Assembly (NCBI GenBank): GCA_003215695.1
Contig: QCJZ01000006.1
Coordinates: 1-37,641, forward strand
Length of the DNA: 37,641 nucleotides
Direction: 5' to 3'
From: Prochlorococcus sp. AG-409-J03
GTDB lineage: Bacteria > Cyanobacteriota > Cyanobacteriia > PCC-6307 > Cyanobiaceae
A model generated the notes under the pieces. It did no database searches and was not told the DNA's origin. It was given only the letters and a program-made list of their open reading frames with translations. The position numbers were made by a program, and so were the translations under genes. Shown piece by piece: positions 22,416 to 26,767 of this stretch (position 1 is its first letter; each line of letters starts with the position of its first letter).

Positions 22416-22502
22416 GGGAGTGTGGCGGAATTGGTAGACGCACCAGACTTAAAATCTGTTGGCCGCTTTTTGGCCGTGGGGGTTCAAGTCCCCCCACTCC
22501 CA
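22416..22502 (+). tRNA. tRNA-Leu (UAA anticodon), uninterrupted
   Basis: The acceptor stem pairs GGGAGTG (22416-22422) with CACTCCC (22495-22501), with A73 at 22502. The D-arm GGCGGAATTGGTAGACGC, an anticodon loop CTTAAAA giving UAA, a long class II variable arm (GGCC...GGCC) and the T-arm GGGGGTTCAAGTCCCCC are all present. CCA is not encoded. Many cyanobacteria carry a group I intron in this gene; here the anticodon arm is continuous. The last tRNA base is also the A of a possible ndhL start ATG. Confidence 0.97.
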
Positions 22503-22774
22503 TGATGTTTTGTATTTCGACTGTGTGTTTAATCCCTTTTGGATTAATAAGTGCTGTTAATCCGATAATTACATTATTTGCTTATGTGGTATTGGGAGGG
22601 TTGTATTTATTGGTAGTTCCTTTATTTCTTTTTTATTGGATGAATAATCGTTGGAATGTTATGGGAAAGTTTGAACGCCTTTTTATGTATGGTCTTGTTT
22701 TTCTTTTCTTCCCTGGAATGGTTGTGTTTGCACCATTTCTTAATTTAAGAATGAATGGGAAAAAGGAGTCTTGA
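22502..22774 (+). CDS. ndhL: NAD(P)H-quinone oxidoreductase subunit L
   Basis: The diagnostic NdhL core is [21 protein letters not shown] and then [29 protein letters not shown], with two or three membrane segments. NdhL is a small cyanobacterial and plastid subunit of the NDH-1 complex used in cyclic electron flow and CO2 uptake. The frame as given starts at ATG 22502 (90 residues), but that base is the discriminator of tRNA-Leu. A second ATG at 22505 and a GTG at 22523 (83 residues, closer to the 77-80 I remember for the family) are alternatives. DUF3007-like and trpA genes follow, an arrangement I know from marine picocyanobacteria. Confidence 0.88.
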
Positions 22775-24086: not shown

Positions 24087-24356
24087 ATGGATCAATTTGT
24101 CCTTTGGGGTTCTTACTGTGAAGACGCTCTAATAAAGAGAACACCTTTTAGGGAAGAGCATCTTCGTAGACTCTCATTACTTAAGGAAGATGGTGTCCTA
24201 ATAACATTAGGACCGACAAAATGTAATAAATATGTTTTTGGAATATTTAAATCTGATGACATTGAGCATATAAAAAGTCTTATCAAAGAGGACGTTTATT
24301 GGAAAGAGGGTATATGGACTGATTTCGAAGTTTACTCCTGGATCCAGGCTTTTTGA
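24087..24356 (+). CDS. YciI-family protein
   Basis: From the ATG at 24087 the product has 89 residues: MDQFVLWGSYCEDALIKRTPF, REEHLRRLSLLKEDGVLITLGPT and IFKSDDIEHIKSLIKEDVYWKEGIWTDFEVYSW. This is the YCII-related ferredoxin-like fold, with the usual alternation and an H-x-R-type position (EHLRRL). Members are putative enzymes with a conserved His-Asp pair; substrates are mostly unknown. A TTG at 24063 would add eight residues, but the ATG fits the family N-terminus. The 3' end overlaps the convergent cytochrome gene by 25 bases. Confidence 0.8.
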   Translation: MDQFVLWGSYCEDALIKRTPFREEHLRRLSLLKEDGVLITLGPTKCNKYVFGIFKSDDIEHIKSLIKEDVYWKEGIWTDFEVYSWIQAF

Positions 24357-24682
24357 GCTTGTTCCCAGACCCAATCAGCTACAATTTGATCGCCATTGTC
24401 TCCTAATTCATCTTCATAACCATTCATCATTCCAATCCCTTGTCTTGCTATCTTCGCTATAGCTTCTTGATTGTCAATTCCATTACGCTTCAGTGATGAA
24501 ATCTTCAGATTCTTTGATCTTCTGATGATATTTCCGCCATTAATGTGACACCCCGCACAGTTGTTTTTGAAAAGATTTTCACCTAAATCTTTTTCCAGTG
24601 CATTTATGTCCTTCGGCAAACTTAAATAAAAAAATATTAAACAAATATTGATAAGCAAAAAAAATGTCAATCTTTTTTTCAT
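24332..24682 (-). CDS. Small c-type cytochrome (cytochrome c6-like), exported
   Basis: A 116-residue precursor. Residues 1-28 are a signal peptide (basic MKKR, hydrophobic core, cleavage likely after INA). The mature part has the haem attachment motif CAGCH (42-46), and GMMNGYEDEL offers the axial methionine (M85 or M86). GDNGDQIVADWVWEQAQ is the final helix of class I cytochromes c. Length and motifs resemble cytochrome c6 (petJ), a lumenal donor to photosystem I. Plastocyanin is also encoded in this window, so this could be a divergent c6C-type or another lumenal carrier. It ends a four-gene leftward unit headed by a sigma factor, 11 bases after the preceding gene. Confidence 0.85.
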   Translation of the reverse strand: MKKRLTFFLLINICLIFFYLSLPKDINALEKDLGENLFKNNCAGCHINGGNIIRRSKNLKISSLKRNGIDNQEAIAKIARQGIGMMNGYEDELGDNGDQIVADWVWEQAQKAWIQE

Positions 24683-24693
24683 GGCTTTGTTCT

Positions 24694-25023
24694 TTAGTTG
24701 TTGAAATTAATTTTTGAAAGGTCCTCGCAAATTTCATCAAGAAGATCCAGTTGTCCAGATGAATTTAATTCAAGGCTCTTTTCTTCTTCTCCTTCATCTT
24801 TTTTCCATACTTCTTCAACTTCGCAAAGTCGCTTTGCAATTATTGGAATACCACCAGAGATAAAATCTTTTTTTAAAAAATCAATTAAAGTTGGCATTCT
24901 TGCTGAAGGAAGGTTAAGACTTTGGCAAAGTTCTACTTGTGTTCTTCCTGTCTGTCTTAACCAATCTTTGATAAGAAGTATGAGATCTTCTTCGATTTCT
25001 TTTGACCAGTGCTCTTTGCTCAT
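24694..25023 (-). CDS. Unidentified small acidic protein in the sigma-factor unit
   Basis: From the ATG at 25023 the product has 109 residues. This start overlaps the stop of the upstream gene as ATGA, which is why I prefer it to the ATG at 25035. The N-terminal half, DWLRQTGRTQVELCQSLNLPSARMPTLIDFL, looks like a helix-turn-helix: TQVELCQSLNLPS is a plausible first helix and turn. The C-terminal half is strongly acidic and ends ELNSSGQLDLLDEICEDLSKI. I do not recognise a named family. A DNA-binding or partner-switching role beside the sigma factor is possible but unproven. Confidence 0.72.
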   Translation of the reverse strand: MSKEHWSKEIEEDLILLIKDWLRQTGRTQVELCQSLNLPSARMPTLIDFLKKDFISGGIPIIAKRLCEVEEVWKKDEGEEEKSLELNSSGQLDLLDEICEDLSKINFNN

Positions 25024-25385
25024 AGAGGAAACCATTTATCAAGCTTAGATTTAGCTCTAAACTTTATCTCTGGAGTAATGTGATGTTGCCAAAGACTAAT
25101 TACAGCAGTTAGGGCCACAAGATCATCACTAAACCCTGAGGCAGGAATGAAGTCGGGAATTAAATCAACAGGAACAATTAAATAAGTGAGTGCTCCCATG
25201 ATAGATATCCTCACCTGAGGAGGTGTTGAATTATCCATGATTAGTTCAAATCCCTCTAAAGCGGGCTGCGCAATTGCTCTTCCTGCTCTTACTAAGATTT
25301 TTTTAAGTACGCCCTCGTCGATAACAGAACTTTCAAGTACTTCTGCTTCAAATACTTCTTTATCTGAGTTTCTTGGAAAAACCAA
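25020..25385 (-). CDS. DUF1232 (YkvA-type) small membrane-associated protein
   Basis: A 121-residue protein. The core GALTYLIVPVDLIPDFIPASGFSDDLVALTAVISLW is the hallmark of DUF1232: a hydrophobic hairpin with the PxDLIPDFIP motif. The first ~50 residues are acidic then basic (VLKKILVRAGRAIAQPALEGFELI). Function is unknown for most members. The start is a TTG at 25385, 2 bases after the sigma-factor stop; the next in-frame Met is around residue 49, too late for the domain. It overlaps the next gene by 4 bases. Translational coupling with the sigma factor is likely. Confidence 0.83.
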   Translation of the reverse strand: MVFPRNSDKEVFEAEVLESSVIDEGVLKKILVRAGRAIAQPALEGFELIMDNSTPPQVRISIMGALTYLIVPVDLIPDFIPASGFSDDLVALTAVISLWQHHITPEIKFRAKSKLDKWFPL

Positions 25386-25387
25386 AA

Positions 25388-26311
25388 TTAAATACTTGTC
25401 TCTAAAAGACCGCTTTGAATACTAGTCTTTCTCAATTTCCTTAGTGCGCGTTGAACTACTTGTCTGCAATATTCCCTACTACAATTCATTTGCCTAGCCA
25501 CTTCGGCTAGCGTTCTCCATTCATTAGATCCATCTAGGCCAAATCTAAGACTTAGTATCGTTCTTTCTTTTGGTGTGAGGTTTGATTTATCCAATAATGA
25601 CCAAGCTGAAGCACTTCTCTCTGCTGATTCGGCTAGTTCCATAGGAGGAACCTCCTCACTGGGGAGAAGATCGACAAGCTCTGAGGGGTCTGCTTTAGAT
25701 TTCACTGCACCTTGCAAACTTACTGTGATACTTCTCAACTCGCATGCAAGCAATTCTTCTACTTCTTCTAAAGGTATTTTCATGTGTATTGCTATTTGGT
25801 TGGTGGAGGGATGAACCCCAAGTTCTTGCATTAGTCGAGACTTTGCGGCACGAAGTTTTGTTAGCTTTTCATTGATGTTTACAGGGATTCTTATAGTTCT
25901 ACTTTGCGTTGACAGTGCTCTATTTAAACCTTGTCTAATCCACCAATAAGCGTAGGTTGAAAATCGATGACCTCTTTTGGGATCGTATTTCTCAACAGCT
26001 CTAGTTAAACCTAGGGTACCTTCTTGTATTAAATCTAGAAGATCAAGTCCTTTGCCTTGATAGCGCTTAGCTAAATTTACAACTAGCCTCAAATTTGCTG
26101 TAATCATTTGATTTTTGGCCTTTTCACCTGCTTTAAGTGTTTTCTTCTCTGCTCTTGAATATTCGCATTCTGGCCCATTCCCTCCAGCTTGTTGGCAACG
26201 TTCAGTAAGTGCAACCATGGCTTGCACTTCTCTACCCATTGTGAGTTCTTGCTCTGGGGTGAGCAATTCGTGTCTTCCTATCTCTCCAAGAAAGTCGCTT
26301 AATGAACTCAC
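25388..26311 (-). CDS. RNA polymerase sigma-70 factor, group 2
   Basis: A 307-residue sigma factor with regions 1.2 (DFLGEIGRHELLTPEQELTMGREVQ), 2 (MITANLRLVVNLAKRYQGKGLDLLDLIQEGTLGL, RFSTYAYWWIRQGLNRAL), 3 and 4 (LTPKERTILSLRFGLDG, TLAEVARQMNCSREYCRQVVQRALRKLR), each in family-typical pieces. It lacks the long region 1.1 of the primary SigA, and its short length and strong similarity fit the cyanobacterial group 2 factors used in stress, light or nitrogen responses. The target genes cannot be inferred. The start is GTG at 26311, supported by a strong AAGGAGG about 7 bases upstream on the minus strand. It heads a tight unit with three downstream genes and follows a long AT-rich gap. Confidence 0.93.
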   Translation of the reverse strand: MSSLSDFLGEIGRHELLTPEQELTMGREVQAMVALTERCQQAGGNGPECEYSRAEKKTLKAGEKAKNQMITANLRLVVNLAKRYQGKGLDLLDLIQEGTLGLTRAVEKYDPKRGHRFSTYAYWWIRQGLNRALSTQSRTIRIPVNINEKLTKLRAAKSRLMQELGVHPSTNQIAIHMKIPLEEVEELLACELRSITVSLQGAVKSKADPSELVDLLPSEEVPPMELAESAERSASAWSLLDKSNLTPKERTILSLRFGLDGSNEWRTLAEVARQMNCSREYCRQVVQRALRKLRKTSIQSGLLETSI

Positions 26312-26767
26312 GATTTATTCCTCCTTATATTAATAACCTAGAGAAAAATTGTTTACTTTCAATAGGCGTAATAAAGTGTTCGGAATTTATTATTTATATT
26401 TTATCTGTTTTTCAAGCCTTAATCGGGTCAAATAAGTTTCCGAAAGGCTACTTTATTTTTTTTTTGCTTTTTAAAAAGAGGGAATAGATAAATTATTTTT
26501 TTTAAATTTCTCTCAAAACCATTGATATGAAAGAAATGTTTTCTTGTTATCTTTTTTTATAAAACTCTTTAAAAATTTTTCTGACTCGAATAATTATTTT
26601 CAAGCGTATTCATGATTCTAACTTAACCATATTCTAACAAAGATTTAAGAAAGCAGTTTAATTCGTTTTTCTCTTATTCAAGACTTTTTTAAATTTTATC
26701 CTTTGTATTTCTACCAAGAAATTTCTTTCTAAATAAATAAATAAATTATATAAGAGTTTTCTTTTTG
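26312..26767. other. 456-base AT-rich intergenic region, no gene seen
   Basis: This is the longest non-coding stretch in the window. It lies upstream of the sigma-factor gene and downstream of hisIE (both leftward). It contains poly-T runs near 26457-26465 and 26496-26502, a 12-base palindrome AAGAAATTTCTT at 26716-26727, and a short AAAT tandem (26730-26745). Frames inside are short and of no recognisable protein type. It must hold the sigma-factor promoter and may hold a small RNA, but no folded structure stands out by eye. Confidence 0.5.

Follow-up and report, generated by a model that had tools for sequence, protein, structure and literature searches.

The 37,641-nucleotide stretch of Prochlorococcus sp. 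AG-409-J03 analysed here in its whole length (the window) carries on its minus strand a gene for a group 2 sigma-70 factor, which we take to be RpoD7, followed by genes for a DUF1232 protein and for a small acidic protein with a helix-turn-helix (HTH)-like core, and these three genes almost certainly form a real operon. The three-gene unit belongs, as far as sampled, to this one cyanobacterial family (Cyanobiaceae), where the rpoD7 operon is carried by tiny ocean and lake cyanobacteria. The HTH-like protein probably has a regulatory role of its own, beyond that of a brake on its sigma factor, and the cytochrome gene that closes the row in the window is very probably a passenger. A preliminary description, made from the letters of the window, had placed the four genes and their spacings exactly as the open reading frames do (2 bases between the sigma and DUF1232 genes, a 4-base overlap between the DUF1232 and HTH-like genes, and 11 bases before the cytochrome gene). 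The features of the locus, with the basis of each, are as follows.

25388..26311, minus strand: sigma-70 factor of group 2, 307 amino acids (aa), GTG start, presumably RpoD7 (Pfam, ortholog group, gene order)
25020..25385, minus strand: DUF1232 (YkvA-type) protein, 121 aa, TTG start, with one moderately hydrophobic stretch (Pfam)
24694..25023, minus strand: HTH-like acidic protein, 109 aa, ATG start, family-restricted, without Pfam or NCBIfam match
24787..25011, minus strand: core domain of the HTH-like protein, residues 5-79, four predicted helices, predicted local distance difference test (pLDDT) 94.7 (predicted structure)
24721..24756, minus strand: C-terminal motif of the HTH-like protein, GQLDLLxEIxxD, residues 90-101, behind a variable acidic linker (conservation)
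24332..24682, minus strand: cytochrome c6B, 116 aa, ATG start, with a CxxCH haem motif, outside the conserved operon (Pfam, solved relative)
26368..26387, minus strand: putative upstream promoter element, AATTCCGAACACTTTATTAC, 76 bases before the sigma start (position-locked conservation)
26335..26341, minus strand: CTAGGTT box (CTANGTT), 46 bases past the start of the upstream element, a probable -10 region that would act in a promoter

Among 151 genomes of the family the HTH-like protein was matched in 136, including 93 of the 94 with low contamination and a completeness of 90% or more; 133 loci were taken in (G077, G108 and G136 were left out) and one of these, L133, was not recovered by tblastn, which leaves 132 mapped loci. 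The sigma, DUF1232 and HTH-like genes follow one another in the same order and on the same strand in 101 of the 132, a recurrence that puts the order beyond chance, while 18 loci have the sigma and HTH-like genes without DUF1232, six have DUF1232 and HTH-like genes without sigma, and seven the HTH-like gene alone, sigma matches below 60% identity (L022, L065) being scored as absent. In 119 of 132 loci, then, the HTH-like gene has the sigma gene upstream of it, always in the same order and strand; among named records of the family sigma precedes both small genes in 18 of 22 loci, the other four comprising one with a sigma fragment only (L237), two without sigma (L244, L247) and one cut by the contig end (L250). 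The DUF1232 and HTH-like genes are almost fused, spaced by -4 to +11 bases at 92 of 104 loci; the distance from sigma to DUF1232 is 2 bases in the window's genus and mostly 30-120 in other loci, and where DUF1232 is missing the HTH-like gene stands 16-74 bases behind sigma in 11 of 18. The unusual start codons of the window are supported, since relatives start at the same spot, the DUF1232 start codon site holding GTG (four) or ATG (one) in all five congeners. Of the four genes that had been read as one unit, then, the first three hold together and keep their order, and the cytochrome gene does neither, as discussed below. A consensus scan found no promoter-like or terminator-like site among the four genes on the minus strand; it also misses the conserved promoter of rpoD7 and therefore says little on internal promoters. 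Fifteen genomes of the family gave no HTH match: 13 of them, all less than 90% complete, also lack the sigma factor at an expectation value (E) of 1e-80, and the remaining two are G103, whose contig ends behind sigma, and G025, the one clear case. The window itself is contig C6 of a 0.91 Mb genome that is 54.8% complete and that we assign, tentatively, to the low-light clade LLI from the size of its congeners, 1.8-1.9 Mb; genomes of genus g18, with 1.6-1.7 Mb, are likewise presumed to be high-light Prochlorococcus.

Searching 242 genomes of the class with a profile of the HTH-like protein gave 46 matches, of which 31, all strong, are family members, and no convincing relative outside; of the 196 class genomes without a match, the 20 listed all come from other families. 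The remaining 15 matches, weak and partial and not counted as relatives, lie in genus g80 of family f22 (G218, G294, G324 and 12 more), within frames some 355 aa long and with E from 2.4e-5 to 8.6e-4. The DUF1232 protein belongs to PF06803 (47.7 bits against a Pfam cut-off of 23), a match that it shares with other DUF1232/YkvA-type proteins, and differs from them in its linkage to a sigma factor, seen, as far as sampled, only in this family: none of 18 cyanobacterial DUF1232 loci outside the family has a sigma gene in its flank (about 1.5 kb on each side where the contig allows). Its closest named relatives are in Prochlorococcus sp. AG-402-G06, AG-424-E20 and AG-402-I20 (88-92% identity), and it also matches a phage family of unassigned function, phrog_14750, in PHROGs (E 3.4e-20). 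In many genomes of the family a DUF2214 membrane protein and a small matrixin-like protein, with an HELGH motif and 23.3 bits against a Pfam cut-off of 24, are encoded divergently upstream of rpoD7 (e.g., L064:268-1481); neither gene was found at the window locus.

The sigma factor is one ortholog group, its members being 64-97% identical at the locus and 71-97% identical in genome-wide searches (77-97% within the set of 30 genomes referred to below), against at most 51% for paralogs. It falls within group 2, as regions 1.2, 2, 3 and 4 are all present (each above the Pfam cut-off) and it is not the primary sigma factor; other sigma factors are present in 30 of 30 genomes searched, one of them about 39% identical and with a longer frame. 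Five sigma factors were found in each of four high-light genomes, and in one genome, G095, they lie at 455, 526, 1243, 1542 and 1617 kb, with the ortholog of the window gene second. The strain MED4 likewise has five (PMC2663038; this and the other articles cited by PMC number are drawn on in excerpt), which by locus tag are PMM0496 (rpoD1), PMM0577 (RpoD7), PMM1289, PMM1629 and PMM1697 (PMC2663038, PMC2921402). From the second place in both orders we infer that the window sigma factor is RpoD7, the ortholog of PMM0577; the identity rests on gene order because quantitative PCR primers of rpoD4 and rpoD8 matched in none of the loci examined. RpoD7 is dispensable, since it is absent from nine genomes that are at least 95% complete. 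RpoD7 and RpoD8 have been described as specific to picocyanobacteria of marine origin (PMC2921402); we find RpoD7 also in, for example, the Synechococcus sp. WH 5701 record (78% identity). PMM1289 transcripts peak at mid-day and PMM0577 transcripts lag behind them by some two hours; the latter are also more abundant in continuous light (PMC2663038). PMM0577 is among the targets predicted for the small RNA Yfr28 and is named sigD after Synechocystis (PMC7368042), a name at odds with the SigD and SigC models of NCBIfam, which score far under their cut-offs for the window protein. No description of operon partners of RpoD7 was found in the main texts of the open-access literature, nor a paper naming PMM0575 or PMM0576, and the excerpts of PMC11119718, PMC10294614, PMC5082946 and PMC3441193 hold nothing on such partners. 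Picocyanobacteria run a reduced set of regulators, and a near-universal, family-restricted companion of a sigma factor is a candidate for a missing piece of their regulation.

What sets the HTH-like protein apart from its sigma factor is that it outlives it. The sigma gene is missing from 13 loci, and in the 11 genomes of these that were searched whole (G091 and G111 were left out; nine are at least 95% complete, G059 89% and G043 69%) no ortholog was found, the best paralog being at most 51% identical. Remnants of the sigma gene at L022, L070 and L072 mark real gene decay. On a quick tree of 88 loci, where several long branches make the exact number uncertain, the presence of sigma changes four times and that of DUF1232 nine times, and L022, which lies outside that tree, adds a fifth loss, giving about five. 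At each of the 13 sigma-less loci the HTH-like gene still reads as an open frame, and its ratios of nonsynonymous to synonymous substitution (dN/dS) are 0.09-0.28 in four sigma-less groups (L065/L067, 0.10; L070/L072, 0.13; L076/L079, 0.09; L121-L134, 0.11-0.28 for the six pairs listed), compared with 0.04-0.33 in sigma-bearing groups; judged by these ratios it is under purifying selection in the four sigma-less groups measured. The reverse case is G025 (95% complete), where sigma is followed by a PsiE-like gene, DUF1232 and the HTH-like gene are absent from the locus, and the HTH profile has no match genome-wide. Sigma factor and HTH-like protein are thus separable both ways, and the sigma-less genomes are natural knock-outs in which the role of the HTH-like protein itself can be asked about. 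Residues S40, R42 and M43 of its presumed recognition region, otherwise nearly invariant, are changed in genus g9, which lost both sigma and DUF1232, and are kept in the six sigma-less loci that retain DUF1232, which hints, from this single lineage, that the recognition region once served the operon.

As the preliminary description had stated, the HTH-like protein is acidic, with an isoelectric point (pI) of 4.6 (family median 4.75, range 4.28-9.07, n=130). The window protein has no Pfam family at E up to 1 and no match in NCBIfam. A full-length model from 94 sequences has a mean pLDDT of 75.5; its linker (residues 81-90) is modelled with low confidence, and a helix is predicted at the C-terminus. 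A model of the core, residues 5-79, from 91 sequences reaches a pLDDT of 94.7 and a predicted template modelling score (pTM) of 0.81, with predicted helices at 4-21, 25-31, 39-53 and 55-74 in helix-turn-helix-like spacing. In the C-terminal motif of the 94 sequences D93 is invariant and Q91, L92, L94 and L95 are at least 90% conserved. We take the GRTQ-x-L first helix and the spacing to resemble those of XRE/Cro-type regulators, from which the protein differs in being acidic, in its extra C-terminal motif and in fold matches of Z 4.3 at most. By sequence it does not join the XRE/Cro family, given the absence of a Pfam family for the window protein and the few, weak matches of its relatives; by structure, XRE-like chains, among them C.Esp1396I and 3eus, come up as weak rows at Z 3.0 to 3.6, with Foldseek E above 1. 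Helix-turn-helix is therefore a fair description of the modelled core, and membership in XRE is not established. A solved-structure search with the HTH family gave a best E of 0.098, and the best PHROGs match of the HTH-like protein, at E 0.018, is to a repressor family.

Taken together, these observations fit best, at slightly less than even weight, with one rpoD7 operon that includes an orphan regulator, able to act in the absence of the sigma factor too and probably binding DNA. A single transcript, from a conserved promoter suggested by the position-locked element just before the sigma gene, would carry the sigma, DUF1232 and HTH-like genes, the latter two of which, given their observed overlap or near-overlap, may be translationally coupled. 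The HTH-like protein would be a small regulator with a conserved C-terminal contact motif, co-produced with RpoD7 and having, as its retention after sigma loss suggests, an RpoD7-independent job of its own; the DUF1232 protein would be dispensable to the sigma-HTH pair. That the HTH-like protein binds DNA is the part of this reading that we hold as somewhat better than an even chance, and several observations weigh against it or against the independence of the protein from its sigma factor. The best VIA-align match of the model is a designed DNA-binding protein (Z 4.3, root-mean-square deviation (rmsd) 3.4 over 54 residues) and the C-protein C.Esp1396I follows at Z 3.4 (rmsd 3.6 over 59 residues), both at levels of Z that VIA-align calls common; Foldseek against PDB and BFVD returned E above 1 throughout, for the full model and for the core. 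Profile matches to HTH families are few and weak: 4 of 94 members match HTH_37, the best of them at E 3.7e-4, and one of 94 matches HTH_19. The core is acidic overall (pI 5.15), which is unusual for a DNA binder, and the linkage to sigma in 119 of 132 loci itself argues that both proteins work together.

Alternatively, the HTH-like protein might bind RNA polymerase or several sigma factors, as an appropriator or co-factor of transcription acting through its C-terminal motif, with RpoD7 just one partner. The acidic character of the protein and the conserved QLDLL motif behind a variable linker speak for this, as do its near-universal presence in the family, its linkage to a sigma factor without whose presence it can nonetheless persist, and the other sigma factors that remain in all 11 sigma-less genomes searched; the protein has no family or fold match to factors of this kind, and we regard the explanation as unlikely, if the foremost of the alternatives. 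A bolder version, which we hold to be a little less likely still, is that the HTH-like protein, which combines a confidently predicted four-helix domain lacking any clear structural relative with a putative C-terminal contact motif, founds a new family of core transcription regulators specific to picocyanobacteria. It would work together with several sigma factors, on RNA polymerase or on DNA; RpoD7 would be just the one that is co-expressed with it, and the element before rpoD7 would be the entry point that switches this layer on.

The element upstream of rpoD7 offers a concrete handle on what turns RpoD7 on. It occurs in two related forms: AATTCCGNASTCTTTATTAC, which 42 of 104 loci carry ahead of the sigma gene at four mismatches or fewer, and AAGTYGGAAGCYTTTCNG, carried by a further 45. 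Among 2080 plain shuffles of these regions the two forms matched 1 and 4, counts that are descriptive and no independent test, both patterns having been drawn up after viewing the same sequences; they replaced a first, looser pattern that matched 95 of 101 regions but also 356 of 505 shuffles. Form one starts 75-79 bases before the start codon in 42 of 42 loci, and form two 77-79 bases before it in 34 of 45 and 84-89 bases before it in the other 11. A CTANGTT box follows 46 bases on in the 33 best form-one loci, with C, T, A, T and T fixed throughout, and high-light Prochlorococcus carry a changed version of the element. Searched across 33 genomes, form one gave 69 matches, of which the 22 with 0-2 mismatches fall one per genome in 22 genomes and are all positioned upstream of rpoD7; the other 11 genomes, four of them sigma-less, have no site at two mismatches or fewer. 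The remaining 47 matches, with three mismatches (one at the rpoD7 place, in G010), compare with 49 for a reversed control pattern, so that a motif of a wider regulon was rejected, and the element belongs mainly to the sigma gene. Within 1700 bases upstream of the HTH-like gene the better form occurs at four mismatches or fewer in 71 of 86 sigma-bearing loci against 2 of 13 sigma-less ones; the two exceptions, L070 and L072, hold sigma remnants and keep the upstream half of the element with one mismatch, so a rule tying the element always to sigma would be too strong. The box, at one mismatch, is present in 7 of 8 sigma-bearing controls and in 1 of 13 sigma-less loci, L022, where it is perhaps a decayed promoter before the sigma remnant.

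A conserved, position-locked element present as a single site at the operon in 22 of 33 genomes is what a local autoregulator requires, and the HTH-like protein might accordingly be imagined to control rpoD7 by binding this element, which lies some 77 bases ahead of the sigma start. The changed element of high-light Prochlorococcus, whose HTH-like proteins are among the most diverged (33-36% identity), points the same way, as does the upstream half kept at L070 and L072, which have lost sigma and retain DUF1232 and the HTH-like gene. Against this, both forms have at least five mismatches in 11 of 13 sigma-less loci, and S40, R42 and M43 persist in the six sigma-less loci with DUF1232, four of which are without the element; it cannot be the sole target there, and we consider autoregulation rather improbable.

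The preliminary description had seen a resemblance to a sigma/anti-sigma arrangement. On such a reading the HTH-like protein, the DUF1232 protein or both would be dedicated anti-sigma factors of RpoD7, freed by a membrane signal. The co-directional operon, the pairing of a small acidic protein (pI 4.6) with a basic sigma factor (pI 9.14) and the hydrophobic stretch of the DUF1232 protein agree with such an arrangement. A dedicated anti-sigma factor is expected to disappear along with its sigma factor, and the HTH-like gene does the opposite, remaining in place through about five losses of sigma and, in the groups measured, staying under selection; DUF1232, for its part, is absent from 18 of the 119 loci that keep sigma, and G025 does without either partner beside its sigma gene. 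In all likelihood, then, the HTH-like protein is not a dedicated anti-sigma factor, and the whole arrangement with its membrane signal is improbable, more so than autoregulation.

The cytochrome behind the operon is, from its sequence relatives, cytochrome c6B. It matches Cytochrome_CBB3 in Pfam (38.5 bits, cut-off 27), has the haem site CAGCH, and finds its best solved relative in 4kmg (E 4.7e-34, the next 1.4e-20), which we take to be cytochrome c6B of Synechococcus WH8102; the model of cytochrome c6 PetJ (NF045930) scores 86.7 bits against a curated cut-off of 135. Its N-terminal hydrophobic stretch and its kinship to c6 suggest a lumenal location. Among 83 loci where both the HTH-like and the cytochrome gene were found, an opposite-strand gene lies between them in 55, a PsiE gene in 37 and neither in 28, and on these counts the cytochrome was rejected as a member of the operon. 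At L064 the opposite-strand gene matches Nif11 in Pfam at 42.9 bits (cut-off 23.8) and, below the cut-off, a cupin family; the other intervening gene is PsiE by Pfam. Reported neighbours of c6B are genes for Nif1(1)-domain, YciI and DUF3136 proteins, with no sigma factor among those named (PMC8358224), and the L064 gene is, from its Pfam name, this Nif11 neighbour. The window shares the YciI gene, and its relatives the Nif11-domain gene, with that neighbourhood (PMC8358224), from which it differs in that c6B stands directly behind the rpoD7 operon. Certain small Prochlorococcus-like genomes alone show such a position. Of the 73 loci in which the gap was measured, 16 have one of at most 60 bases, and in 18 loci, all in genomes of at most 1.9 Mb, the cytochrome match starts within 420 bases of the HTH match. 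Cytochrome c6B very probably reached the rear of the operon by deletion of intervening genes in small-genome Prochlorococcus, where it may be co-transcribed. The suggestion that the cytochrome couples the operon to redox state draws on these short gaps, 11 bases in the window, and is very improbable in view of the intervening opposite-strand gene and of five g18 genomes taken as high-light, in three of which the c6-like gene lies more than 100 kb away and in two of which it was not found at E 1e-15.

Two minor features of the window may be added. The c6B and YciI genes are convergent and overlap by 25 bases (24332-24356), so that both C-termini are encoded on opposite strands of the same DNA; the same overlap is seen in 57 of 73 loci measured for both genes. 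An Rfam scan yielded nothing but a tRNA, and the tRNA gene at 22416-22502 shares its last base with the beginning of the ndhL-bearing open frame (22502..22774), which implies that the true start of ndhL is probably further downstream.

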